Positions 4,288 to 28,577 of a stretch of DNA of 41,585 nt are shown here, piece by piece; positions within the stretch are counted from its first letter, which is position 1, and every line of letters starts with the position of its first letter. The DNA comes from a virus: positions 1 through 41,585 of IMG/VR virus record IMGVR_UViG_3300037575_000045; one strand, written 5' to 3'. The notes beneath the pieces are model-generated. The model did not search any database. It saw nothing but the letters and a program-made list of their open reading frames with translations, and was not told where the DNA came from. Made by a program: the position numbers and the translations under genes.

Positions 4288-5183
4288 GAAAAGCCCCCTG
4301 ATTCGCTAATCTGAGCAAGCCATGCGCGGGTTGCAGTCACTGCAGCGCCGCCCATTGCACCCGAGTCGTAACGATGTACGCCTGTCAGCACGACATACTT
4401 CTTCTCATCAACTAAGACGAGGTTGCCGGCATTAAGATGATCGTCTAATTGCCTAGTGATGGTCGCTTTGGTGACCAAGATACGGCGCAGGTTTTGCAAT
4501 TCTCTTGCATCGACCCTTGGCCAGTAGTTGACCGACCGCTCAGATTGCACGTTTCCGATAATCTGCGAGCCATCATCATCAATTGATAAGTAATTGGTAT
4601 TGCTGTGACGCACGGCATTCGGGTCGTCGATAAATTGCACCGCGCTTTTGTCATAGGGCATAGCGTCATTAGTAAATATCTCGTTAATGCGCGTGATAGA
4701 GACCCGATTGTCTTTAAATTTAACCACTGCAGACTCTTTTTGTAGAGCTGCTGCAATGCGGGTTGTTGGCAAATGCCCTTTTAGGCAGATAAAACTATTT
4801 AGCTTGATATCGTCTTTGATGCGCAGCTTTGCCCCTAGTGCGCGGTACACCTCATTGAAGCTGGTATCGGTAAGGCTGGTCGCACGACTGGCAACGCCAA
4901 GCAAAGGGGCGCACCCTGCCAGCACTGCGATGATATGCAGGGCTGAGATGCGCTTGCCGTCTTTAATTGACTGGGTATTAATAACTTGTGACTTAATAAC
5001 TTCAAGCGGCGTATCTTGCGCCGTGGTGATAATCTTGCCAACGGCCAGCGCCTCGCTTAGATGATCATCAGCTTTTACAACAAGCTCAAGCGACACAGGC
5101 ACAGGCACCAAGTCAGTGCGATAGATTGCACTGATTAGGTTGCTGCCACCAATAGCACTGCTGTCATCTAAGTAAAGCTTCAT
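4284..5183 (-). CDS. Baseplate hub protein (gpD/gp27-like)
   Basis: 299 residues from the ATG at 5183, whose ATGA overlaps the stop of the previous gene; a TTG nine bases upstream is less likely. Position directly upstream of the spike gene, the size, and the pattern of a beta-rich N-terminus, a helical LysM-like part (about 75-160) and a beta-rich C-terminus (VDEKKYVVLTGVHRYDSGAM) match hub proteins that carry the spike trimer. No single motif is decisive, so the assignment depends mainly on context. Confidence 0.68.
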   Translation of the reverse strand: MKLYLDDSSAIGGSNLISAIYRTDLVPVPVSLELVVKADDHLSEALAVGKIITTAQDTPLEVIKSQVINTQSIKDGKRISALHIIAVLAGCAPLLGVASRATSLTDTSFNEVYRALGAKLRIKDDIKLNSFICLKGHLPTTRIAAALQKESAVVKFKDNRVSITRINEIFTNDAMPYDKSAVQFIDDPNAVRHSNTNYLSIDDDGSQIIGNVQSERSVNYWPRVDARELQNLRRILVTKATITRQLDDHLNAGNLVLVDEKKYVVLTGVHRYDSGAMGGAAVTATRAWLAQISESGGFS

Positions 5184-5677
5184 AAAATCCAATACCTTGA
5201 TTCAACCAATGGCCGCGGCTCGTCAGTAAATGAGATGCTAAAGGGCTCACACTGAAACGCCTCTTTTTTCATGCGCTCAAGTGCTTCGCGGTAAATCATA
5301 TCCGCCTCACTCTTACCGACGCCTGATGGAGCCACCCCTAAACTCTGCGCGCCCTCCATGCGGCCCGCTTGAATTAGGTCACAATGAGCCCTTACCACTG
5401 GATCAATGATTACCCATTCATCAAGCGTAAGATGCGTCTCTTCATTAATCTCAAGGGTCGCAAGCTCGCCAGTTAACTCATCAAGCTCATCGTTATCCGG
5501 CTTAATCTGTAGACCGCCCGCCCATGCTACATACTTTTTGACACTTGCAATAAGCAGCTTGATAACTTCGCTTAGCAGTAATGATGAGCCGCTGGTTAGC
5601 AGCTCGTCATACAGCATCTGAGATATCTCATTGATTGAACCGGCGCTATAGCTCGGCTCTGCTTTTAAGTTAGCCAT
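5180..5677 (-). CDS. Tail/baseplate-associated protein of unknown role
   Basis: 165 residues, overlapping its neighbours on both sides (start inside the end of the tube-like gene, stop at the ATG of the hub). It is mostly helical with an acidic middle (DNDELDELTGELATLEINEE) and a basic, Phe-rich end (FSISFTDEPRPL). No known domain recognised. By position between a tube-like protein and the hub it could be a tail assembly chaperone, tape-measure partner or wedge component. Confidence 0.6.
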   Translation of the reverse strand: MANLKAEPSYSAGSINEISQMLYDELLTSGSSLLLSEVIKLLIASVKKYVAWAGGLQIKPDNDELDELTGELATLEINEETHLTLDEWVIIDPVVRAHCDLIQAGRMEGAQSLGVAPSGVGKSEADMIYREALERMKKEAFQCEPFSISFTDEPRPLVESRYWIL

Positions 5678-6296
5678 AAATTACTGTGCTATTGCTGCTG
5701 GACTGAGGGGTTAAGCCGCCAAGGTTATTCAGTGCGCTGCTAAGGATGTTGGCGAAAATATCCTCACTGCTGCCCGATGCGCCAAGACTGCCTTCATTGC
5801 CAAAGTACATATAACGGCAACCGGCTTGAACCTGTAGAATCTGACTACGGCTTGCTGAGTCGATTTCACCGCCGCCATCTGCAAACGTTACAGCTAGGTC
5901 AAGGATTTCGTATTCACGCTGGCCTTTGATACCGCCGCCATCGTCAACAAACCCGTCATAAACCTTAGCCGATGGTAGTATGCCGCCGTATTGATTCACG
6001 ACCTTTTCAGCAAACGCTGCGATGATGCCAGCTTCGGTCTCAATCATGGTCCACTGCGACTCAAAGCTCGTTTTAGGCACGCCAGCAACGTGACCTTGCA
6101 GACCACGGGCATAGTCCACATCGGCTGCATCGTTGTTAGTGACCATGGGGCGCTGGAAGTTTTGAATAAGTACGTACAGGCTTTCAAATCCCTCGGGCAC
6201 CAATACAGCGTTACACGCAAGCATGGCTGCACCTAGGGACTTTGCCGTGACGTATTGTTGTTTATACGCCTGTAGGCTTGGGAGATTGTTTTTCAT
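5670..6296 (-). CDS. Probable tail tube protein
   Basis: 208 residues. The central part (GHVAGVPKTSFESQWTMIET, then a YEILDLAVTFADGGGEID and SRSQILQVQAGCRYMYFGN series) has the alternating beta strands and the conserved 'PKT...' and 'Y-YFG' features seen in gp19-like tube proteins of contractile tails. The C-terminal 40 residues are low complexity (Ser/Gly/Asn). It is the first gene after late promoter LP2 and follows the LP2 terminator hairpin, so it should be strongly expressed, as fits a tube subunit. Assignment is by pattern, not by a decisive motif. Confidence 0.6.
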   Translation of the reverse strand: MKNNLPSLQAYKQQYVTAKSLGAAMLACNAVLVPEGFESLYVLIQNFQRPMVTNNDAADVDYARGLQGHVAGVPKTSFESQWTMIETEAGIIAAFAEKVVNQYGGILPSAKVYDGFVDDGGGIKGQREYEILDLAVTFADGGGEIDSASRSQILQVQAGCRYMYFGNEGSLGASGSSEDIFANILSSALNNLGGLTPQSSSNSTVIYG

Positions 6297-6297
6297 G

Positions 6298-6328
6298 AAA
6301 AAAACCCTATCGGTGATTGATAGGGTTT
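6298..6328 (-). terminator. Terminator/ribosome-site hairpin between LP2 and the tube gene
   Basis: Minus strand AAACCCTATC pairs perfectly with GATAGGGTTT around a 7-nt loop, followed by seven Ts and then C-ATG. It terminates read-through from upstream. The AGGG of the 3' arm is the only ribosome-site candidate for the ATG at 6296. The -10 of LP2 directly abuts the 5' arm. Confidence 0.8.
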
Positions 6329-6368
6329 ATTTTGGGGGATGCGGGGGCTATCAGAGCGGGGGTGTTCC
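6329..6368 (-). promoter_or_regulatory. Late promoter LP2 (GGAACACC-N26-CAAAAT)
   Basis: GGAACACC at 6368-6361 is 5 nt after the stop of the upstream gene. The -10-like CAAAAT is at 6334-6329, immediately followed by the hairpin. It drives the tube-like gene and the downstream baseplate and portal operon. Confidence 0.8.
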
Positions 6369-6373
6369 GCCAT

Positions 6374-6982
6374 CTAAAAGGGTGAGAAGTTAGCCAAATG
6401 AAAGCGCTGCAAGGCCACGGCAACCTGCAGCCCATTGTCTTCAGCCTCAAAGCCCACAGCTATCTCCGGTACGACCTGCCAGGGTGCCAATCTTGATAAA
6501 ATCGGGGCTAATTCTGATAGCTCGGCCATATTAACCACAGAATCTAGCTTAATGCGGATTCGACTTGTCAAAAAGCTGTCTGAGGTTGGCTGTTCGTACA
6601 AGTAATCAGGGTACCGGTCGGAGAAGTGCTTTGAATGCCACAGTCTGACAATCTCGTTTTGCTGGGGATAGAGCATATCTAGGACGAACTGCAAGAATCC
6701 AAGGCCGCGCTCACTTGCTAGCGCCGACCAGTTGGCATAAATGATGCTCATAAGCTTATCTGATAGACCGCCATCCTCACGCCTAAGCACCGCCAATCCA
6801 TTAAGCTTGGTAAAGCGCTCCACCACAGTTCGACTGCCCTGCCATGGTGCGCCATAGTCAAATATTTCGGTAAGCTCATCGTGCAAGTGCTCGGTGATCA
6901 AGCCCTTGAATATACCCGCCATTGCTCGCTCAAGCTCATTCGCTTTATGGCTATGCTCAATAGTGCCTATGAATTCGCTCAT
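6374..6982 (-). CDS. Baseplate protein, gpI-like
   Basis: 202 residues directly downstream of the J-like wedge gene (1-nt gap). Position, size and the tryptophan/aromatic-rich helical N-terminal half (FDYGAPWQGSRTVVERFTKL) fit the gpI-type wedge subunit that follows gpJ in P2-like baseplate operons. The C-terminal half (LTSRIRIKLDSVVNMAEL onward) is beta-rich. Sequence alone does not settle the family. Confidence 0.55.
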   Translation of the reverse strand: MSEFIGTIEHSHKANELERAMAGIFKGLITEHLHDELTEIFDYGAPWQGSRTVVERFTKLNGLAVLRREDGGLSDKLMSIIYANWSALASERGLGFLQFVLDMLYPQQNEIVRLWHSKHFSDRYPDYLYEQPTSDSFLTSRIRIKLDSVVNMAELSELAPILSRLAPWQVVPEIAVGFEAEDNGLQVAVALQRFHLANFSPF

Positions 6983-6983
6983 G

Positions 6984-8441
6984 TTACATATTCCACAGTG
7001 CGCCGCCAGTATCAGCGGTACGGGTCAAATTAACCGTGATGCTAGAACTGCTCAAGAACACCCATTGATGCGGTTTAATCGAGCTACCAGCACCTTCGCC
7101 GCTTACTGTAAAGTCACTGATGCGGTCTTGGAATGCAGGGATATCTTGTCTGATGCGGGTCGCTATTTCTTGCAGGTTAAAGCCATCAATATTTGGGTGG
7201 CTTGCAGCAAGTGATCCTTTGCCATAACTTGCCAGTAACAATTCTTTAATCTGAGTCTTAACTGCTGCAATATCATGCACTGCAGCTAAGCGACCACTCA
7301 CAGTCACCTGGTATGGCCGCTCTACTGCTGCTTTGATTCGCACACGACCATCGAGCAAGCTGTCAGCCTTTGCCACCAGTTGGCGGATGTCTTCAGTTAG
7401 CGTTGCGCCCTCGCCTGCAGACTTTGGCACCACGGTTAAGTTTAGATGGTTAATGGCATCAAGCGATGGTCCGTAGTGCTTCTCGTTGGTGGTCTCATTC
7501 CAGATTGCCATGTACTCAAAGCGGTTCATAAAATGCCAGCGCACAAGGAAGTCAAAGTTGCCCATGAATACAGCATTTCTATCGTAAACAGACGGAAAGC
7601 TTGCCAGTAATCTAAGCTGAGCCACAGTTAACGGGTCAGCACCAGCTCTTACTGAATCACTGCCTTGAAAATATAGGTTTAGCTTAGTCTCGTCATTGGT
7701 GTAAATGCTCGCTAGTGATGCCTGCTTTAGACTATTGGGGTCCACAGCACCATAGCATTGAGTGATAGCCACCTCGTAGGTCTCGCCTGCCTGCACGGTC
7801 TTGCCTACTCGCTCGGTATCACCAAAGGTAATGCTGATTGTCTCTAGGTTGTCGCTGTGCAAGCTAAATACTGCATCCCCAGCGCCTGCGTTCATGAATT
7901 TGGGTGTGTGCTGGTAAGTCTCACGTGTGGTCGCATTAACGATTGCAATGCCTGCAAAATAAGCATCCTCAGTGGTTGATACGGTGACGCTATAAAATGG
8001 CTCATTGACTGGGATTGTAATGGGAAGTCTGATGATTTCACTCTGCTCAGCCAGCACCTTTTTAACCTCGCCAGCATTAAGTGTGACCGCTGCCATTAGA
8101 CGCCAACCACGACCAGTACCGTCATCGATTTGACGACCTTGGGACAGGCTTACGGTGGAGTCGCTATTATTTTCAATAGTGAGTAGGTGCTGACATGGCG
8201 TTGCAACCGGCAGAATGCCTTTGTTAATCGCATCGGCAATAATGGTCCTATCTTTTGACTTGATAAACGGCTCAATGATATTGACATCATTATCACGTGA
8301 CAGCCAAACTACCGTCTCAACAATACTGGTGATAAGCGCTCGTACTGTAGGGTCACCGGCTCGCCAGCGCTCCGCCACATCAGGATAGTCATTGATATTA
8401 CTACCAATAGCATTAAGTAATTTACTGCGCTCTAGTGTCAT
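6984..8441 (-). CDS. Baseplate wedge protein, gpJ/gp6-like
   Basis: 485 residues. The helical N-terminus (RWRAGDPTVRALITSIVETV) is followed by a beta-rich middle and a C-terminal part (GATLTEDIRQLVAKADSLLD, then a VERPYQVTVSGRLAAVHD segment and a GKGSLAASHP-type loop) characteristic of the Baseplate_J family: repeated 'vrV.paVpvtvsg.i..' strands with inserted helices. It forms the wedges joining tube hub and fibres. It overlaps the gp25-like gene by 20 nt at its 5' end, the order (gp25-like, J, I) known from P2- and Mu-like baseplates. Confidence 0.8.
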   Translation of the reverse strand: MTLERSKLLNAIGSNINDYPDVAERWRAGDPTVRALITSIVETVVWLSRDNDVNIIEPFIKSKDRTIIADAINKGILPVATPCQHLLTIENNSDSTVSLSQGRQIDDGTGRGWRLMAAVTLNAGEVKKVLAEQSEIIRLPITIPVNEPFYSVTVSTTEDAYFAGIAIVNATTRETYQHTPKFMNAGAGDAVFSLHSDNLETISITFGDTERVGKTVQAGETYEVAITQCYGAVDPNSLKQASLASIYTNDETKLNLYFQGSDSVRAGADPLTVAQLRLLASFPSVYDRNAVFMGNFDFLVRWHFMNRFEYMAIWNETTNEKHYGPSLDAINHLNLTVVPKSAGEGATLTEDIRQLVAKADSLLDGRVRIKAAVERPYQVTVSGRLAAVHDIAAVKTQIKELLLASYGKGSLAASHPNIDGFNLQEIATRIRQDIPAFQDRISDFTVSGEGAGSSIKPHQWVFLSSSSITVNLTRTADTGGALWNM

Positions 8442-8751
8442 AAAAATCCTGATTCATTGTCGTATCAATGGTCTCGCCTATGAAAATAGGCATGTTGCCC
8501 ACCATCAAAAAAACCTGCAGCGCATCATGACCCACAGCATTGGTCTGAATGCTCAGATCATTATCGCCCAGCTGATTTAGCAAAGGGATATCGCGCCTAA
8601 GCTTGACCAGCAGCTCGTCAGCCTTTGCGCTGCTTAACTCCTGCAGCAGCATGGACTTGATATCCGCTCCATAGCCTTGACCAAAATAGCCATTAACTGG
8701 AGTGCTTAGCCAGTGCTCAATCATGTTTATGACGGTTTGCGGGATTATCAT
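8422..8751 (-). CDS. Baseplate wedge protein, gp25/gpW-like
   Basis: 109 residues. The segment FGQGYGADIKSMLLQELSSA, then repeated hydrophobic and acidic residues (RRDIPLLNQLGDNDLSIQ), fits the small gp25-like wedge protein, in which a 'GFGSxLxxLL' type helix precedes conserved strands. It precedes the J-like gene with a 20-nt overlap, the standard order. Conserved residues are only partly visible. Confidence 0.6.
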   Translation of the reverse strand: MIIPQTVINMIEHWLSTPVNGYFGQGYGADIKSMLLQELSSAKADELLVKLRRDIPLLNQLGDNDLSIQTNAVGHDALQVFLMVGNMPIFIGETIDTTMNQDFYDTRAQ

Positions 8752-8760
8752 GCTAAAGCC

Positions 8761-9204
8761 TTATTCCTGATATGCCGGTGGAAAGCCTGGTCTGTTATCT
8801 TGCTTGGCGTCTCTTGCCTGCCTTGCCATTTGAGATACGGCGCCCGCATCAATAAAGCGGCTGTGGCGCAAGCAGACAAGCAGGGATGTAATCCATATCA
8901 TGCCAATGCCGCCAATGCCCACAAAAATCAATAGGCCGACGCCACCAATACCAAAAGTGGCTGAGATAATCATAAGGGATGCAAAGCGCCAGCATAAAAA
9001 CAGCCATATGGCCACAAACGGCGCTGCTAGGTAACATGAGAGCTTAAGCATCTGACCAATAGCAATGGGCAGAATGTTGGGCGGGATAAGCTGATTAATA
9101 TCCTTTACCCGCGCCATCACATCAAAAAACATGTAGGTTAAAAGCACCCAAATAGCGCCGCTTAAAAACACATCGATAATATAAGAATTAGCCATGTTAA
9201 GCAT
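8761..9204 (-). CDS. Integral membrane protein
   Basis: 147 residues with about three membrane segments (IIDVFLSGAIWVLLTYMF, a stretch around ILPIAIGQ to LFLCW, and ISATFGIGGVGLLIFVGIGG to ITSLLVC) and a polar C-terminus (MARQARDAKQDNRPGFP). GGAG stands 5 nt before the ATG. A holin-like or superinfection-exclusion role is possible but unproven; it lies inside the baseplate operon, where such genes are uncommon. Confidence 0.6.
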   Translation of the reverse strand: MLNMANSYIIDVFLSGAIWVLLTYMFFDVMARVKDINQLIPPNILPIAIGQMLKLSCYLAAPFVAIWLFLCWRFASLMIISATFGIGGVGLLIFVGIGGIGMIWITSLLVCLRHSRFIDAGAVSQMARQARDAKQDNRPGFPPAYQE

Positions 9205-9212
9205 ACCGACTC

Positions 9213-9743
9213 CTATGCCGCTGCCTGCTCTAGCGCCTGAGCAAGCTTCTCTTCTAGCTGCTTCTTCTCAGTCTCTTTGGTGGCAATGGTTTTATCAAGC
9301 TCTCTGATCTGGTCTAGTAGCTCATTTCGCTGCTGAGCTTTATTCTTGGGCGCATTGGCGCGTAACGGCTTAACACGAACCTTGGCTTGTTTTTTATTGA
9401 AGGCGTTTTGGCCACGGACGATAGAGTGACCTAGCGCATCGACCGACGCATTAAAAGACGGCTTGTAACTGTTGTCAAAATCGCCTGATAGCGGTTGCTG
9501 CTTACCATTTATATCAATACGAAAGATATCTAGCTTGTCGTCATCAGAGCCCTCTGTGCGCACGTACAACTTAACCTTTTGACCATTCTCAAGGACGGCT
9601 TCAATTGGCTTTGCGCTTGCGCCAGACACACGCACCACTTTTAGTACGTTAACAATGGGGATGGCTTGCTTGGTGGCTTTAGCCAAGCGATTGATGAATT
9701 CTTTAATCAATGGCGTCTTTTCGGTAACGTCAGATAGTTTCAT
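9213..9743 (-). CDS. Coiled-coil virion-associated protein of unknown function
   Basis: 176 residues. A beta-rich core (AVLENGQKVKLYVRTEGSDD, then IFRIDINGKQQPLSGDFDNS and an N-A-F-N basic stretch) is followed by a basic linker and a C-terminal coiled coil (RNELLDQIRELDKTIATKET, then KKQLEEKLAQALEQ). The layout of a small beta domain plus coiled coil resembles the end of the DarA-like protein at 1-1326, so it may belong to the same injected-protein group. It is the first gene after late promoter LP3, and its ATG immediately follows the LP3 terminator hairpin. Confidence 0.6.
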   Translation of the reverse strand: MKLSDVTEKTPLIKEFINRLAKATKQAIPIVNVLKVVRVSGASAKPIEAVLENGQKVKLYVRTEGSDDDKLDIFRIDINGKQQPLSGDFDNSYKPSFNASVDALGHSIVRGQNAFNKKQAKVRVKPLRANAPKNKAQQRNELLDQIRELDKTIATKETEKKQLEEKLAQALEQAAA

Positions 9744-9748
9744 AAAAA

Positions 9749-9780
9749 AATAACCCTAGCATGTAGATGATAGGGTTATT
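9749..9780 (-). terminator. Terminator/ribosome-site hairpin after LP3
   Basis: Minus strand AATAACCCTA pairs with TAGGGTTATT, then a run of Ts to the ATG at 9743. The last 3 nt of the LP3 -10 hexamer lie inside the 5' arm. AGGG in the 3' arm is the ribosome-site candidate. Confidence 0.8.
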
Positions 9781-9817
9781 CTGACTGACTCTAGGTGCCT
9801 TATAGCTGGGGTGTTCC
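9778..9817 (-). promoter_or_regulatory. Late promoter LP3 (GGAACACC-N26-CAGAAT)
   Basis: GGAACACC at 9817-9810, just after the stop (TAG) of the acidic/basic protein gene. The -10-like CAGAAT is at 9783-9778. It drives the operon from 9743 leftward. Confidence 0.78.
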
Positions 9818-9821
9818 TAGC

Positions 9822-10676
9822 CTACTTCATACTTGGGTATAAACCCATGCGGCGGCCTTTTTTAAGTGACTTCATTTGCTTGCGTAGTGCTGACCCCGTG
9901 GTGGCTTTGCGGCGCGCCTTACGAAGTGCTGCTTTTTGACCAGCAGATAACTTAATCTTGCCAGCAATGCGCTTATTGATAACGACTTTTTTACCGTTAC
10001 GAATGGCCTTGACTGCCTTATAAACGATGGTCTTGCCGTTAACTTTCTTCACGCTCTTCTTGCCAGCACGAACCTTTTTGCGACCAACAGCATCAAACTG
10101 CTCGTCATCATCGCCCATCTCGTCATAAGCTTCGTCTTCTTCAAGGGCATAAGCGAACGCCTCAACAAAGGCATTGAAGTCATCGCCATCATCTGGTAGG
10201 TTTTCAATGATGGTTTCACTGGCTGACTCAATGGCAGCATCAGCCACATCGATATCCGCATCAAACATATCTTCAATCACGTCATCGCTGACGCCAAGGG
10301 TTGATAGTGCGTCACTGATATGAGCTGATAAGACCGCCTTTACAGTCGCATCAATATCACTATCCTCGTCTTCATCGTCTTCAGCAAAAATAGACAGCAT
10401 CAGATCATCAAGAATCTCGCTTGGAAGTAGCGTATCTTCATCTTCTTCGGTCTCGCTTGACTCGCTGACCATAGCAGACATCATTAAGGCGACTTGCATG
10501 GCAGCCAGACGCATCTGAACGCTAGCGTGAACAGCTTTACGCTCGTCGATTGGGTCAAACTCGATTGCAGCTGCAGCATCAGCGGCGCTTAGCGCATCAA
10601 ACTGGGCTTGCTGCTCACGCATACGTGCGTTTTCTTGCATACGCTGGGCCACTTGTGAATTAGAAAACATTGACAT
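9822..10676 (-). CDS. Two-part acidic/basic virion protein
   Basis: 284 residues with a sharp charge split. About 1-195 is helical and very acidic (runs of Asp/Glu at about 75-110 and 165-195); about 199-284 is strongly basic (GRKKVRAGKKSVKKVNGK, a KKVVINKRIAGKIKLS segment and KSLKKGRRMGLYPS at the end). The basic tail could bind DNA, RNA or acidic virion partners. The acidic half could be a scaffold or chaperone part removed by the prohead protease. It follows the sheath gene in the same transcript, with AAGGA about 8 nt before the ATG. No family recognised; the structural role is inferred. Confidence 0.6.
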   Translation of the reverse strand: MSMFSNSQVAQRMQENARMREQQAQFDALSAADAAAAIEFDPIDERKAVHASVQMRLAAMQVALMMSAMVSESSETEEDEDTLLPSEILDDLMLSIFAEDDEDEDSDIDATVKAVLSAHISDALSTLGVSDDVIEDMFDADIDVADAAIESASETIIENLPDDGDDFNAFVEAFAYALEEDEAYDEMGDDDEQFDAVGRKKVRAGKKSVKKVNGKTIVYKAVKAIRNGKKVVINKRIAGKIKLSAGQKAALRKARRKATTGSALRKQMKSLKKGRRMGLYPSMK

Positions 10677-10733
10677 ATTAAGAATCCTTATCGGTTATTT
10701 GGTATCAAAATGAGGTTGGTATAACTGCAACTA

Positions 10734-12110
10734 TTATTTAGTCACAGTCGTTTCAAAGAACACTTGTCGTGCACAGCCCTCTGGACGGCGCGAGAATTTA
10801 ATATCTACTTTCTCGAATGGGTTGTCAGCACGTGGGGTTACGCTTAGCACGTAGTATTTACCACCAAGCTCTTCTGACTTCACAAAGAATCCTGCAGCAA
10901 CGCAAGCATCCAAGGCGCGGTTAATCTCAGTCTGAGCATCGCGGATATAGCTTTGCATGCCCTTGAGTAAGTGCTTTTTAGCGATACCGACAACAAGGTT
11001 GTCCGTAAACGTGACAATCTCAGCGGCGTTGGTTAGGCGTAGTGCGCTAGTCTTGCTGTCATACTGAGTGAGTGCATCGCCATAAATCCAGCGGCTGCCT
11101 GCATCAAAGCGCTCATTCATAACAACGTTGATACCAGCTTCAGCAAGTGCGTTTTGAGCCTCTTCATCAAGATTAACGCCTGATAAGCGCTCAACATCAC
11201 GAAAACCTACTGGGAATTGGTAACCGGCGATTGGGCGGTTTAATGGCGGAATGCCTGATCCGGTAGTCTGAGCATTACGAATCAAAGTTTGCCCTAAGAA
11301 ATCACCCAGACATGGACGCCATTTTTTGCGAGCCATAACGGTTGTGGCATTGGTTGGACGTGACTTGTTAGGGTTCCAAAACAACCATGCGCGGTAGTCA
11401 TTAATGCTGATAGACTCAGCCAGTGCGGTGGCAGTTTCCCAGTCTGTAACTTCGCCAATATCGACAAGTAAATGACAGTTGAGCTTGTCCATAACTTCAG
11501 CCATCGCCTCAATCATAGGCAAATCATTCACTGTTGCGCATGCGATATAACGTGGGCGTTCCTGCATATCCAAGATTGAGCGCTTGGCATCAGCTGGGGT
11601 GGTGTCTGTGACGACGGTAGCAGGTACTGCGATAGTGATTTCATTGACACGGTAAGCGCCTAGCGTATTTAGCACCTCAGCATCGCTAAGTGCGGTTTTA
11701 ATTGACTCGGCATCCGTATCTTTGTAAGTGGTTTCCACCTCTTCAAAGAAATCATCAGCACCATCTAGGGCGCCGGTAAAGTCGAGCTTTTGGGTGATAT
11801 AACCGAAATCATTAGGGTAGCGCTGCTCTAAATCGTCAATGCCGCCGCCAGTATGCAGGCGGCCTTGTAATCGAGCGATAACGCTGTTATCAATCTTGTC
11901 AGCAAAAGTGACTTTAAAGATTAGGTTGTTTAAAGGGTCGTCTGTTTTGGTAGGTGACTTATCATCAATGACACTAACTTTGGCTACGACGTTATCGTCA
12001 AAACCATACTCAGTGACCATCGTGATACTCGCCAGCGCACCAACATCCGGCTCGCCTGCAAGGGTGATGCCGTCAGCCGCTATATTGAGGGTAAGGGTCG
12101 TAGCTGCCAT
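10734..12110 (-). CDS. Tail sheath protein
   Basis: 458 residues. The middle and C-terminal parts (RPIAGYQFPVGFRDVERLSG, then ALAEAGINVVMNERFDAGS and a C-terminal ALDACVAAGFFVKSEELGGK region) have the pattern of sheath polymerisation domains: a segment with a conserved 'in.i..r.g..v.G..t' theme and a final helical-beta fold. The N-terminal domain common in sheaths (an IVG.f.rG...P..v motif) is not obvious here; instead it appears in the three genes immediately upstream. Late promoter LP4 and its terminator hairpin precede the ATG. High output from its own promoter fits a major tail protein. Confidence 0.75.
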   Translation of the reverse strand: MAATTLTLNIAADGITLAGEPDVGALASITMVTEYGFDDNVVAKVSVIDDKSPTKTDDPLNNLIFKVTFADKIDNSVIARLQGRLHTGGGIDDLEQRYPNDFGYITQKLDFTGALDGADDFFEEVETTYKDTDAESIKTALSDAEVLNTLGAYRVNEITIAVPATVVTDTTPADAKRSILDMQERPRYIACATVNDLPMIEAMAEVMDKLNCHLLVDIGEVTDWETATALAESISINDYRAWLFWNPNKSRPTNATTVMARKKWRPCLGDFLGQTLIRNAQTTGSGIPPLNRPIAGYQFPVGFRDVERLSGVNLDEEAQNALAEAGINVVMNERFDAGSRWIYGDALTQYDSKTSALRLTNAAEIVTFTDNLVVGIAKKHLLKGMQSYIRDAQTEINRALDACVAAGFFVKSEELGGKYYVLSVTPRADNPFEKVDIKFSRRPEGCARQVFFETTVTK

Positions 12111-12116
12111 AAGAAA

Positions 12117-12143
12117 AAGCCTATACTGTTGGGGTATAGGCTT
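12117..12143 (-). terminator. Terminator/ribosome-site hairpin after LP4
   Basis: Minus strand AAGCCTATAC pairs with GTATAGGCTT, then TTTC-TT-ATG. The 5' arm starts at the base after the LP4 -10 hexamer, so a local transcript would begin inside the arm. AGG in the 3' arm is the only ribosome-site candidate for the sheath gene. Confidence 0.8.
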
Positions 12144-12183
12144 AGTATAGATATGGATGGTTTGTAAGCTGTGGGGGTGTTCC
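12144..12183 (-). promoter_or_regulatory. Late promoter LP4 (GGAACACC-N26-TATACT)
   Basis: GGAACACC at 12183-12176 overlaps the TAG stop of the upstream gene by one base. The -10-like TATACT is at 12149-12144. It drives the sheath. Confidence 0.8.
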
Positions 12184-13010
12184 TACAGAGGCTCAACACT
12201 TACTTTTACACAGCTATGAATAACAATGTCCTGACCACCGTTGATAAGATCAAGCATATTCACTGCTGTTGATGTACTGTCATCTTTTTCGCGTAAAATC
12301 GACTCAGGAACATTGGTAAACCGAATGCTAGCATCTGACTCCATAATCTCGCCCTTCTCAAAATACTCGTTAGGCAGCGCATCCAAGTAAGCAGATACAT
12401 TATCAGCATCAAGGCCGGTTAGCGACTGGCTTAATCCGAGCGCCATATAGGTATTGAGTCTTGAATGTACATCGGGAGCCGTATCAGGATGCGACATGCC
12501 GAAATTCGAAAATACTGTCATAAACAACTCGTTCACCGTCTCTTCCTCGCCATAGCTCTCAATTTCCGAAAGTAGGTCCGATGTGCGCTTCCAAGTGTAA
12601 TCAGTCTGGTACTGCACTCCCTTGAATTCAATATTTACATACATTGAGAATCTCTCAATCCCGCTCAGCACAGATGTGTCGATGCCACTCAGATTAACAG
12701 CAGTTGCTTTGCAATTCTCATTGCTGTCAGTGCTTACCCTACTACTCCCCACCCTAAAAACGCTCACCTCATCAACCCCTTCCTGAAAAACATCCTCAAC
12801 AATCTTGTAGCTAGGGCTATTGGGATCACGACCCAGCATAGTCTTATAATTGTCACGGGTGACGCGAAACGGCTTGTCCGTGCGCCCTCGAAGAAATTTG
12901 CCGACAATGACTACGCTATCAGATATTAATCCTGCGTCCGATTCCGTCCTGTCAGCAACGGCTTGCTGCTGGATGCCGGAGGCGCTGCCAAGGTTTTTAG
13001 TGGTTATCAT
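12183..13010 (-). CDS. Sheath-module paralog with own C-terminal domain (copy 3)
   Basis: 275 residues from the ATG at 13010; an in-frame ATG 12 bases upstream lies inside the LP5 hairpin and is rejected. Residues 1-90 (TTKNLGSASGIQQQAVAD..., VVIVGKFLRGRTDKPFRVTR, then LGRDPNSPSYKIVEDV) repeat the module found in the two upstream genes and recall the IVG-rG-P motif of the N-terminal domain of sheath proteins. The C-terminal 185 residues resemble the middle of the 439-residue paralog (13462-14781): both have a short beta domain, an ...IRF... segment and an end with a ...VxTC/HSCxK... segment. Function unknown; a sheath-associated or decoration protein is likely. Confidence 0.7.
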   Translation of the reverse strand: MITTKNLGSASGIQQQAVADRTESDAGLISDSVVIVGKFLRGRTDKPFRVTRDNYKTMLGRDPNSPSYKIVEDVFQEGVDEVSVFRVGSSRVSTDSNENCKATAVNLSGIDTSVLSGIERFSMYVNIEFKGVQYQTDYTWKRTSDLLSEIESYGEEETVNELFMTVFSNFGMSHPDTAPDVHSRLNTYMALGLSQSLTGLDADNVSAYLDALPNEYFEKGEIMESDASIRFTNVPESILREKDDSTSTAVNMLDLINGGQDIVIHSCVKVSVEPL

Positions 13011-13014
13011 GAAA

Positions 13015-13042
13015 AAGCCCATACTCGTTTAGGTATGGGCTT
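13015..13042 (-). terminator. Terminator/ribosome-site hairpin after LP5
   Basis: Minus strand AAGCCCATAC pairs with GTATGGGCTT, then TTT-C-ATG. The 5' arm begins directly after the -10 hexamer. The upstream ATG at 13022 sits in this hairpin. Confidence 0.8.
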
Positions 13043-13081
13043 AGTATATCTTTGCTGAGTGATTTTGCTCTGACGTGTTCC
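13043..13081 (-). promoter_or_regulatory. Late promoter LP5 (GGAACACG-N25-TATACT)
   Basis: Variant motif GGAACACG at 13081-13074, overlapping the TAG stop of the 93-residue paralog. The -10-like TATACT is at 13048-13043 after 25 nt. Confidence 0.7.
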
Positions 13082-13362
13082 TACGCCTCTGCGCTTGCAC
13101 CAGTGCGGCGAACCCATAGCTCGCTAACACCTCGTTTAAGCGCATCTTCTACCGTGTTATAGCTTGGATTGGTCGGGTCATAGCCCAGTCGCGCTTGGTA
13201 GTTTTCACGGGTTACGCGGAACGCTTTATTCATCCAACCACGGCGGAATTTTCCGACCACAATGCCATTGTCTGCAGAAGGAAGTGAGGTGGATTCGGTT
13301 TTATCGATAACGTCCGAGCGCTGGATGCCGACCGATGCGCCTAAAGTTTTAGTTTCAATCAT
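13081..13362 (-). CDS. Sheath-module paralog, module only (copy 2)
   Basis: 93 residues, consisting of little more than the shared module: ETKTLGASVGIQRSDVIDKT, then IVVGKFRRGWMNKAFRVTRE and LGYDPTNPSYNTVEDALKRG, ending RRTGASAEA. The neighbouring paralogs carry the same module followed by large C-terminal parts. This copy may be a truncated relic or a functional minimal form. It has its own late promoter (LP6) and an intact start, and the stop is natural (TAG, reused by LP5). Bases just before its ATG match those before copy 1 (CAGGT/TCACCT-ATG), a sign of tandem duplication. Confidence 0.7.
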   Translation of the reverse strand: MIETKTLGASVGIQRSDVIDKTESTSLPSADNGIVVGKFRRGWMNKAFRVTRENYQARLGYDPTNPSYNTVEDALKRGVSELWVRRTGASAEA

Positions 13363-13395
13363 GAGGTGAACCTGTATGGGTTAGGGTGTGGGTTT

Positions 13396-13434
13396 ATTTT
13401 AGAGGGTGTCTGACTGGTGGTGCGGCGGTGTTCC
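13396..13434 (-). promoter_or_regulatory. Late promoter LP6 (GGAACACC-N25-TAAAAT)
   Basis: GGAACACC at 13434-13427, then TAAAAT at 13401-13396. No clear stem-loop before the ATG at 13362. It is one of only two family members without the hairpin. Confidence 0.72.
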
Positions 13435-13461
13435 TATGGGTAAATGCTGTGCGCAGGATAT

Positions 13462-14781
13462 CTAGTTACTCGCATCAACCCATTCAGTATCAATACTGGT
13501 TAAACTGTCAAAATACAAATCTATACTATTGACAGTCTTTTCCAAAACCAAGGACTTGCTAGGAATAGAGGTTGCAGGGTCAAAATCAACCTCAACAAGA
13601 CCTTCTGAGAAACTAAAATCTATATAGAAGCTCATTGCCCCTGAGGTAACTAGGTTGTCTAGGATATTCATGGTTATTAAGTCTTTGTCAGCACTAAATG
13701 CCCCTAGGTAATAAGTCGCATAACTCCTGCCTTTCTCCACTAGCCCAATATCACTGCAAGCTATTACATCTCCCGAAGATAAGCTAGGGATATGCATTCT
13801 CAATGTTCGTCCCTGCTTCACAATAATACTTGCTCTTGCCTCGCCGCCACTTGTTCGAGCATCTACAACTCCATTGTACACAGCGTGAAACTCAGGGCCT
13901 TCACCCACAATCTTTTGAACTGTGATAGGGGGTAGCAGCGCCTTAGCACAAGTTTCAACCCGTATGTTCGAGCCATTATTACATATATCAACAACCTCTA
14001 TATACTCAAAGTAGTCATCCGGCACTTGCTGCCCTTCTGCAAAGTTATTGAAAATACTTCGTGCAACCAAGCCTTGCTGCAGTACCAAAGACTCCTTACT
14101 TGGCTCAAACCTAATCCCAAGGTACGGGGAGGGTGTCCTCGCATCTAAAAATTGATAATCATTGTTGCCTGTGCTAAGCCCTTGCAAGTCTTCGTCATAA
14201 TAATCTGATGTATTAAAGGTGGTCAACACCCTCAGTTTTTCAGACAAACTTTCCATAGCAAAAGGACTTCCTGCTATCTCCCCATACTGAACCCCACCAT
14301 AAACAAGTGATCTAAAAAATTCATCTGCCTCAATTGGTCGGTTAGGCTCTGCTATGGCTATCAAAGGGTACTTTTCCCCTCTCACAATAAAATCAGCGAC
14401 TAATATTTGCATTTTTTGGCTTGTATTCTCATAACCACTAAAGGTAAAGCTTGTAGGGATGCACTCAATCGGCTCCTCCGGGTTAACAGGCTCACTCACG
14501 ACCCTCACTCTACTATCACCAATCCTCAAAACCTGCACCTCGCTAACTCCTAGCTTTAGCGCGTCCTCAACCATATCGTAGCTTGGGTTGCCTGGATCAA
14601 AGCCTAAGACCGCCTCAAAGTTGCTTTGATTAACCTTGAAGGGGCTGCTCATACGCCCGCGCTTAAACCTACCTACAATCAGACTTGCATTGGTCGCTGA
14701 CAATAAATCGGGGTCTTTTCTGTCTTTGATTTTTTGGCGCTGAACGCCAACGGCTGAGCCTAGGGTTTTGCTATCTAGCAT
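13462..14781 (-). CDS. Sheath-module paralog with large C-terminal part (copy 1)
   Basis: 439 residues. About 1-95 is the shared module (DSKTLGSAVGVQRQKIKDRK, SLIVGRFKRGRMSSPFKVNQ, LGFDPGNPSYDMVEDALKLG, ending VLRIGDSRV). About 95-300 resembles the C-terminal part of the 275-residue copy. About 300-439 is an extra beta-rich region (IIVKQGRTLRMHIPSLSSGD, then EGLVEVDFDPATS). The DNA here looks more AT-rich and low in complexity than the module or the neighbouring genes, which suggests the C-terminal part was acquired separately. It has no late promoter of its own and is read from upstream. Function unknown; a surface or sheath decoration role is inferred. Confidence 0.7.
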   Translation of the reverse strand: MLDSKTLGSAVGVQRQKIKDRKDPDLLSATNASLIVGRFKRGRMSSPFKVNQSNFEAVLGFDPGNPSYDMVEDALKLGVSEVQVLRIGDSRVRVVSEPVNPEEPIECIPTSFTFSGYENTSQKMQILVADFIVRGEKYPLIAIAEPNRPIEADEFFRSLVYGGVQYGEIAGSPFAMESLSEKLRVLTTFNTSDYYDEDLQGLSTGNNDYQFLDARTPSPYLGIRFEPSKESLVLQQGLVARSIFNNFAEGQQVPDDYFEYIEVVDICNNGSNIRVETCAKALLPPITVQKIVGEGPEFHAVYNGVVDARTSGGEARASIIVKQGRTLRMHIPSLSSGDVIACSDIGLVEKGRSYATYYLGAFSADKDLITMNILDNLVTSGAMSFYIDFSFSEGLVEVDFDPATSIPSKSLVLEKTVNSIDLYFDSLTSIDTEWVDASN

Positions 14782-15377: not shown

Positions 15378-17189
15378 TTACATAGTTGGCAAGTTAATCA
15401 TCTCGATTAGCATGCACTGATTGGCAAAGCGTGGAATTGGGTTAGGCTCAGCAGCCTGGCGACTATAAACCGCAACATCTTTTTCAAACGCATTGATATT
15501 AGACGCAAGCACCATAGGCGGTACGGCAACATGACCAACAAACGGCGCATGAGCTGGGCTAGTAGGACGTGGAACCATTAGAGCGTAAGCGCCATTGGTT
15601 AAAGTGTCCTCGTTAAATACGCCCATAGCTTTTGGCACGTAGTAAACGTTAGCGCCAGTGTTCAAGCGACCAATGCGGTAGATGCTGTATGGGTCGCCGT
15701 AAGCTTCACCAGTTGGCGTGTAAGCATCGCCAGTTAAGCCTTCAAAGAATCCTGCACCATTGTCGCTGACATACAAATCATAAGCGCCAATACCAAGCTT
15801 GATGGTGTTAGATAAAGCAGTGCGCGCCTTACCTAGTGTCATGCGGATGCCGCCAAACATATCTTGGACGGTGTTATAGGTGATACCGGCCTTGATTGGG
15901 TCAAACGTGACCACGCGGTTGTCGCTATCGGCTAAGCAGCGGTTAACAGCCCAGCGAAGTAGACGACCATTTTGCTCGTAGTAGTATTTTTGCATCGTGA
16001 TCATTTGCACAACGCCGTACCAGTTCAGGTTCAGCTCGTTTGACATCTGAGTGATAGCGTCAATAGTTGCTGAGCTGCGTGAACGGTGCGGGTGAGCATA
16101 TACGCCATGGTGAGCAAAGCCCATGTCAACGCCAGGCGCTTTTAGCAGGTAGTTGCCATCATCATCTTTGCGCTCGTAGTCAAAGATTAAATCGACTTCT
16201 ACGTCATCAGCATCCGGCTCTACGCCATCGGTAATGTCAAACTGCACGGTGACAGTGTGCGTATCAAGGTCGGCTTGGGCTGAAGTTACGATGTACTTGT
16301 TAGCACCGATAGTGACTTCTTTTTGCGTAGGCTGCAGCGTGCTGATGCCAGTCGTAGTTGGGTGATTGCGATGCTTGTCATTGGCAACCTCAACACCTTT
16401 GACGAAGACAGCAACACGGCCACCTAAGAATGGGGCTGCTTTTGACGCCTCATCGACAACAAACTTGGTAGTCTTGTTTGTACGTACAGCGGCGGTATAG
16501 CCAACACGTGAATTAAGAGTGAATGCACCAGCATCACCTTTAGTCATCGTCAATAAATGACGGTTTTCAAGGTATGGCATGCCAGCTTGTGCGCCGTCGA
16601 TTGCTTCACCACGTGAGAATACGCCCATCTGCATGCTGGCGTTAACTTCACCAGATACCAATGGCACTTCGTTTGAGCCAGTTGGGTTAGGTAGCATGGC
16701 AACAAGCGGCAAGCTATTAGCAATACCGTAAGAGATAACGACTTGAGTAGCTGCTGGGACTACTGACAACGCTTCATGATGTGAGAATGACAGACTATCG
16801 AACGTTTGACCGTCAACAGTAGCATCAGCAGGGCGGTTTTCAGTAAAGACTACGGCTTGCTGGATAGCACCAAGCACGACTTCGGCTGATGGCATCTCAC
16901 CACCGTTACGGCGCTGATATTCGGCAATACCGATATTTAGGCCATCAAAGACCTTTTGCTTTTGCTCATCTTCAGGAAAATACTTAGACTCAAGCAAGTT
17001 GGTCAAAGCTTTTGGCATATCACCCATAGCGGCTTCGCGGCCCTGTGGATGCTGAGCTAGCATTGAATCGAATGTAGCAACATCGCCGGTCGTCTTGCCA
17101 AGATTCTCATAACGCTTTAAAAGCTGAGCTGTCTTATGCTTTTCGGTACCAACAATATCGGTATAACTTTTAACTTTGGATTGATCCAT
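15378..17189 (-). CDS. Major capsid protein
   Basis: 603 residues. The size and pattern match long major capsid proteins of large myoviruses: a helical N-terminal part (about 1-120, possibly removed on maturation), then PLVAMLPNPTGSNEVPLVSG and GVFSRGEAIDGAQAGMPYLE (HK97-fold N-arm and start of the core), GVYAHPHRSRSSATIDAITQ in the middle, and a C-terminal ...PFVGHVAVPPMVLASNIN... segment. It has its own late promoter LP7 and is closed by a strong terminator, as expected for the most abundant virion protein. The probable prohead protease is at 27564-28493. Confidence 0.8.
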   Translation of the reverse strand: MDQSKVKSYTDIVGTEKHKTAQLLKRYENLGKTTGDVATFDSMLAQHPQGREAAMGDMPKALTNLLESKYFPEDEQKQKVFDGLNIGIAEYQRRNGGEMPSAEVVLGAIQQAVVFTENRPADATVDGQTFDSLSFSHHEALSVVPAATQVVISYGIANSLPLVAMLPNPTGSNEVPLVSGEVNASMQMGVFSRGEAIDGAQAGMPYLENRHLLTMTKGDAGAFTLNSRVGYTAAVRTNKTTKFVVDEASKAAPFLGGRVAVFVKGVEVANDKHRNHPTTTGISTLQPTQKEVTIGANKYIVTSAQADLDTHTVTVQFDITDGVEPDADDVEVDLIFDYERKDDDGNYLLKAPGVDMGFAHHGVYAHPHRSRSSATIDAITQMSNELNLNWYGVVQMITMQKYYYEQNGRLLRWAVNRCLADSDNRVVTFDPIKAGITYNTVQDMFGGIRMTLGKARTALSNTIKLGIGAYDLYVSDNGAGFFEGLTGDAYTPTGEAYGDPYSIYRIGRLNTGANVYYVPKAMGVFNEDTLTNGAYALMVPRPTSPAHAPFVGHVAVPPMVLASNINAFEKDVAVYSRQAAEPNPIPRFANQCMLIEMINLPTM

Positions 17190-17238: not shown

Positions 17239-17278
17239 ATCTTAAATCTGCCACGTATAGGCCATATGGGGGTGTTCC
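17239..17278 (-). promoter_or_regulatory. Late promoter LP7 (GGAACACC-N26-TAAGAT)
   Basis: GGAACACC at 17278-17271, placed 5 nt after the T-run of the terminator at 17284-17306. TAAGAT at 17244-17239. It drives the major capsid gene. Confidence 0.78.
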
Positions 17279-21662: not shown

Positions 21663-21697
21663 CCTACACTAAGTATTCAAAGTTAACTTAGTGTAGG
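21663..21697 (-). promoter_or_regulatory. Stem-loop between LP8 and the tail fibre gene
   Basis: Minus strand CCTACACTAAGT pairs perfectly with ACTTAGTGTAGG (12 bp). The LP8 -10 hexamer TACACT is inside the 5' arm, and TAGGA of the 3' arm is the ribosome site, 5 nt before the ATG. No T-run, so translation control rather than termination. Confidence 0.85.
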
Positions 21698-21729
21698 CGT
21701 TTGGGGGCGGCGTAATGATTGGGTGTTCC
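21690..21729 (-). promoter_or_regulatory. Late promoter LP8 (GGAACACC-N26-TACACT)
   Basis: GGAACACC at 21729-21722, after the terminator at 21744-21770. TACACT at 21695-21690. Confidence 0.8.
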
Positions 21730-24527: not shown

Positions 24528-24566
24528 ATTTTAGTGGGCTTGCCAGCAATGATTCCGCGGTGTTCC
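24528..24566 (-). promoter_or_regulatory. Late promoter LP9 (GGAACACC-N25-TAAAAT)
   Basis: GGAACACC at 24566-24559 starts 1 nt after the TGA stop of the terminase gene. TAAAAT at 24533-24528. No clear stem-loop before the ATG at 24502. Confidence 0.75.
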
Positions 24567-28500: not shown

Positions 28501-28548
28501 CCCCTTACACGGTAGGCATAATATTAGTTATGCGTTAAGTGTAAGGGG
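28501..28548 (-). terminator. Terminator/ribosome-site hairpin after LP10
   Basis: Minus strand CCCCTTACAC pairs with GTGTAAGGGG, with an inner GCATAA/TTATGC helix in the loop, then TTTTTT-A-ATG. The LP10 -10 hexamer TACACT is inside the 5' arm; AAGGGG of the 3' arm is a strong ribosome site 7 nt before the ATG. Confidence 0.87.
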
Positions 28549-28577
28549 CTGGGTGGTTGCTAGAGCTGTGGTGTTCC
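28538..28577 (-). promoter_or_regulatory. Late promoter LP10 (GGAACACC-N26-TACACT)
   Basis: GGAACACC at 28577-28570; TACACT at 28543-28538. It drives the protease-terminase operon. It follows the long gene-free stretch 28578-28893. Confidence 0.82.

Follow-up and report, generated by a model that had tools for sequence, protein, structure and literature searches.

Phage sheaths are regarded as single-protein polymers, and a sheath made of one polypeptide is usual in phages, although not strictly defining. For the T6SS, we know of only a single TssB per system and of no paralogue set with display domains. In this system, the subunit of the contractile sheath consists of two polypeptides, TssB and TssC (VipA/VipB) (PMC9230969). 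The sheath described here may work like TssB/TssC, as two chains gave complementary coverage of the tail-sheath profile phrog_1036. It differs in that neither of its parts, the N-terminal module and the sheath body, had a sequence relationship to TssB/TssC or matched a Pfam family above the cut-off.

Sheath variants in the AFP/PVC-type injection systems are whole sheath proteins. More than one sheath protein is present per particle (PMC10304247), but in contrast to the split-sheath phages there are no exchangeable N-terminal halves on a common body. In T4 Hoc and other Ig-like capsid decorations, a conserved docking domain is combined with variable outward-facing domains (PMC10385173). However, these decorations are capsid-borne, dispensable and located outside the structural subunit, whereas the docking part of the split-sheath proteins is half of a sheath subunit. 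By fold, the nearest solved relative was gp22 of phage P1 (PDB 8JAJ/8JAN), which has the same plan of an N-terminal arm, domains I-III and a C-terminal arm but is a single 529-aa polypeptide with neither a separate N-terminal half nor decorated versions. In P1 gp22, residues 3-34 form an arm that pairs with the C-terminus of a neighbour, domain II comprises residues 35-99 and 243-425, and the surface domain III comprises residues 100-242 (PMC10304247).

The Acinetobacter phage vB_AbaM_ABMM1 belongs to the same split-sheath group as the DNA studied here and differs by having the bare module only. Namely, its body (WEU68031) and a 92-aa module (WEU68033) were both annotated as "tail sheath protein", the module gene was located about 0.8 kb downstream of the body gene, and there was no other module. 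The ABMM1 tail was contractile by transmission electron microscopy (PMC10345192), so a split sheath with the bare module alone works. The main text of that paper does not state whether LC-MS/MS found the module, and in the sections covered here it makes no remark on the split. Among open-access papers, with subscription literature outside the search, we found none on a split phage sheath.

Organization of the sheath locus

The window, that is, the whole 41,585-nt stretch of viral DNA that was analyzed (IMG/VR record IMGVR_UViG_3300037575_000045), had no DNA-level relatives among the phage records searched. Its sheath was not encoded as one polypeptide: the gene of the 458-aa sheath body (10734-12110, minus strand) did not include the module, and modules were encoded by separate genes. 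Three of these, also on the minus strand, were located between the body gene and the gene of the probable major capsid protein (15378-17189, minus strand; phrog_1014), whose homologue in Xanthomonas phage Rb1 was annotated as the major capsid protein. The gene w93 (13081-13362) encoded a bare module. The other two encoded probable decorated partners, namely w275 (12183-13010), with a module in residues 1-89 (12744-13010; module HMM E 1e-37) followed by a 185-residue C-terminal extension, and w439 (13462-14781), with a module in residues 1-89 (14515-14781; E 1.5e-37) followed by an extension of about 350 residues. An upstream ATG at 13022 would give w275 a length of 279 aa; the second ATG at 13010 was the one conserved among relatives.

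The C-termini of w275 and w439 matched no Pfam domain. The sequence-only reading had assigned them a common second part. The local alignment score of 57 compared to 34.8 +/- 5.6 for shuffled sequences, with 3 of 1000 shuffles as good, and profiles did not recover the similarity; a C-terminal cysteine motif common to both proteins gave a further hint. A shared second part was thus weakly supported. The AT-richness proposed for the third part of w439 came down to a mild difference, with a GC content of 41% versus 48% for the window.

The motif GGAACAC-N25-28-TANNNT had seven matches in the window, all on the minus strand, compared to 0.25 expected by chance. These late-promoter-like elements preceded the sheath body (12144-12183), w275 (13043-13081) and w93 (13396-13434), and the others were located at 17239-17278, 21690-21729, 24528-24566 and 28538-28577. 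The capsid gene was also preceded by the motif, and w439 was not, in agreement with the earlier suggestion that two of the three module genes have their own late promoter. Related GGAACACC elements were found ahead of structural genes in (Psychrobacter) relatives. A scan for sigma-70 promoters gave no excess versus shuffles; the phage-specific element, not the sigma-70 pattern, is the informative promoter signal. At several of the elements, a hairpin started just past the TATACT-like box, so the late mRNAs may begin with a 5' stem-loop. The distribution of the elements suggests that w93, w275 and the body would be strongly expressed and that w439 would depend on read-through.

Two other genes near the sheath were identified. 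A phrog_1053 protein of unknown function was encoded directly after the sheath (9822-10676), and a similar protein was found behind the sheath in the phage record L006, in L007, in ABMM1 and in Rb1. An Hdf-like protein (phrog_1620) was encoded at 9213-9743, which would fit a remote relationship with phage P1.

The module as the N-terminal part of a sheath

All three modules of the window matched PHROGs 14345, 5283 and 24956 (E 1e-14 to 1e-24) and approximately positions 6-95 of phrog_1036 (E 4e-5 to 1e-7); for w93, the values were 1.3e-6 for positions 6-95 and 5.6e-24 for phrog_14345. The pairwise identity among the three modules was 46-51%. This confirmed that the tandem genes share a sheath-like N-terminal module. 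The body matched positions 117-531 of phrog_1036 (E 1.7e-68), with the C-terminal domain I and the second part of domain II present, and could be aligned with unsplit sheaths. Thus, the body lacked exactly the part that was found in the module, and the two parts were complementary; the earlier impression that the 458-residue sheath is missing its N-terminal domain was correct.

Taking together the position of the module on the profile and the domain borders of P1 gp22, the module corresponds to the handshake arm together with the first domain II segment, which places the cut between module and body at the II/III junction. Judged from its sequence, the body begins at the equivalent of domain III and would have neither the N-terminal arm nor the first domain II segment.

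Structure models were in agreement with this assignment. An AF2 model of one unsplit homologue (546 aa; mean pLDDT 86.6) had P1 gp22 as its nearest structure (E 2e-27, TM 0.72). In the models of both the unsplit sheath and w275, residues 1-28 were disordered, in line with an arm that would require a partner, and the same strand-strand-helix-helix-strand pattern followed (residues 35-95 and 34-86, respectively). The w275 module was modelled with a pLDDT of 88-97, its C-terminus fell below 60 and was uninterpretable, and the top PDB match of the w275 model was the P1 sheath (E 1e-3). In sequence searches of the PDB, the sole match of the module profile was the P1 sheath at a non-significant E of 0.5, and the body profile A2 gave nothing significant. 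The sequence-only reading had proposed a comparison with sheath domain I, but by P1 numbering the module is the N-terminal arm with the first segment of domain II. The assignment could also account for PHROG families 14345, 5283 and 24956, all three of unknown function, as module-bearing proteins.

In other phages, the two parts were fused. Unsplit homologues of about 535-560 aa were found in Rb1 and in plasmid prophages of Pseudomonas, Burkholderia and Ideonella, as well as in Nitrosomonas, Accumulibacter and Rhodocyclaceae. A search with an unsplit query found 74 viral loci, of which 69 had exactly one module, fused to the body. A Moraxellaceae genome (G194:C91:8509-8778) had an apparently unsplit sheath with a 547-aa frame, so the split and the unsplit form both occur in one host family. 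One viral locus, L259, had two tandem unsplit sheath genes, the first encoding a normal protein (5013-6665, 551 aa) and the second a protein of 1588 aa (6690-11456). The latter had about 1050 residues inserted at the II/III junction, including LamG domains (E 2e-17) and a weak match to DUF6242. This giant paralogue is the same outcome, decoration at the same junction, reached independently and without splitting.

Distribution of the split and turnover of the decorations

All 32 non-redundant records with a truncated sheath body had between one and four module genes, and modules were present in all 30 records tested as well as in named Moraxellaceae plasmids and genomes. Matches were found in 33 of 349 Moraxellaceae species genomes, including G194. 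Screening samples of 391 Pseudomonadales genomes and 398 Pseudomonadota genomes for the module added none, as the only matches were two Moraxellaceae already found. Often one module per record was bare (about 92-130 aa), and the remaining ones carried unrelated C-termini. In many Acinetobacter records, a module gene of 92-100 aa was located directly before the body gene, as expected if the fission had occurred in place. A programmed frameshift joining the two parts was rejected: the body had its own ATG a few to about 20 nt past the module stop, and elsewhere the genes were far apart or, as in ABMM1, in reverse order.

The decorations were diverse. An 821-aa module protein (L022) contained PKD/Ig-like repeats (E 1.7e-18), another (L189) a LamG domain (E 4e-8), two others BspA-type leucine-rich repeats (LRR_5; L194, E 4e-24; L320, 1256 aa, E 2e-55), and those of L009, L186 and L318 DUF285 (E 7e-16). 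Possible beta-propellers in L186 and L187 were weak or detected by similarity only, and small cysteine-bracketed domains were also present among the C-termini. The comparison of C-termini across relatives, which the sequence-only reading had called for, thus revealed unrelated types behind the same module. These relatives showed one feature of display proteins, a docking module fused to exchangeable, surface-type domains; w275 and w439 carried no known domain. A C...C domain ("CEGAT ... FCLA") was common to about 14 domains in Acinetobacter-type proteins, and a different one was found in Psychrobacter-type proteins. A single "second part" domain for all decorated modules was rejected, and w275 and w439 joined neither group significantly.

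In most Acinetobacter genomes and some Psychrobacter genomes, modules of the same genome were 77-97% identical with unrelated C-termini; the range was 79-97% within many Acinetobacter genomes, even though the genes may be 15-20 kb apart there. Modules often clustered by genome in the tree. Such similarity and clustering would be expected if the modules were matched to a single body. The same 417-aa module protein was kept in six or more records. On the complete A. oleivorans plasmid NZ_CP110255 (82.6 kb), the only module protein found was a decorated one of 216 aa, so a body can apparently have a decorated module as its only partner.

The closest relative of the window, L006, had a capsid protein 99% identical and a sheath body 92% identical to those of the window. 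Its module proteins were of 92 aa and 231 aa only, with no counterpart of w439. The 92-aa module was orthologous to w93 (75% identity; grouped with 97/87 in the tree). The decoration set turns over faster than the sheath and capsid machine.

Additional genes were observed in these regions. In L006, the genes of the decorated module and the sheath body were separated by an ORF that by eye was glycosyltransferase-like (7255-7872), and its product could modify the decoration. The equivalent cassette of another relative, L015, encoded a 1211-aa coiled-coil-like repeat protein (8550-12185) and a DUF285-like protein (12195-13061), both classified by eye and neither with a sheath module, so this region appears to be a hot spot for decorations. 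In Psychrobacter-type relatives, a conserved family of proteins of 233-244 aa, also without the module, was encoded between the bare module and the body of the sheath (L022:8360-9067, L009:8399-9121, L166:14508-15209, L093:12959-13693).

Proposed assembly of the sheath

We propose, with a probability of about 0.78, that these phages have two-chain sheath subunits in which display domains are attached to the tail through the N-terminal half, giving a mosaic of bare and decorated subunits. Domains I and III, the remainder of domain II and the C-terminal arm would come from the body, and the handshake arm at the N-terminus and the first domain II segment would come from the separate module of about 90 residues. 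Each subunit would most likely be a non-covalent 1:1 complex of module and body, with several module types competing for one docking site on identical bodies. The bare w93 would be the probable default partner, and w275 and w439 would bring their extensions. Since the C-terminus of the module sits where the surface domain III would start, the extensions are predicted to project outward. Binding to glycans of the host or to environmental surfaces would fit the LamG, LRR and Ig domains. New decorations may be gained by duplication of a module and a swap of what comes after it.

The split sheath with an N-terminal domain exchanged between partners and the decorations evolving by duplication and domain exchange had been put forward as alternative hypotheses. 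The former was well supported, and the two prove to be aspects of the same system: the module is the N-terminal half of the sheath subunit by the profile match, the fused relatives and the fold match to P1 gp22, it was present beside every truncated body, and it was fused to many unrelated C-terminal domains. We lean slightly towards a stronger form of this proposal, where the body is a universal socket and the module family a set of plugs bearing exchangeable domains of the lectin, LRR, Ig or propeller type. The virion would then carry an ectodomain mosaic over much of its sheath, and the set would be reshuffled between close relatives. With pairwise identities of only 46-51%, the three window modules may not have equal affinity for the body.

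In the main rival reading, the decorated modules are restricted to the tail ends. Under this improbable alternative, the split sheath has w93 as its constitutive N-terminal half, and the long modules are used only at special positions such as the first or last ring, the collar or whisker fibres. It would fit the presence of a bare module in most records, with its own late promoter in the window where w439 had none, and the location of several long Acinetobacter modules 15-20 kb from the sheath. Moreover, at the ends of the P1 tail, the terminator and the sheath initiator are likewise connected through handshake arms (PMC10304247). However, some complete records (such as W02, with a single 216-aa protein) had decorated modules only, and with 1:1 pairing a decorated module must then serve every ring. 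Modules of the same genome also often exceeded 90% identity and gave no hint of a specialised docking surface.

It was very unlikely that the body is a complete sheath on its own and that the modules are independent structural or accessory proteins merely descended from a sheath N-terminus. Module genes were sometimes far from the body gene, as this would allow, but such a body would lack part of domain II as well as the arm on which the conserved handshake depends, at least one module was kept in every split record, and the parts were fused in the unsplit relatives. Finally, a few truncated or interrupted copies (one stop in G279, some short ends) could point to extra module genes being decaying duplicates without function, but we considered this negligible given intact frames of up to 1256 aa with recognisable folded domains, dedicated late-promoter-like elements and the repeated retention of the 417-aa protein.

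Thus, the mosaic of bare and decorated two-chain subunits was the reading that we preferred. As a parallel to TssB/TssC of the T6SS, a two-chain phage sheath could show how a contractile sheath splits and yet functions, and it predicts simple, testable stoichiometries of modules and bodies in virions. The locus suggests that different sticky domains may be displayed along the phage tail, and the exchangeable half would make it possible to ask by genetic means whether, and for what reason, phages decorate their tails with lectin-, LRR- and Ig-like domains.
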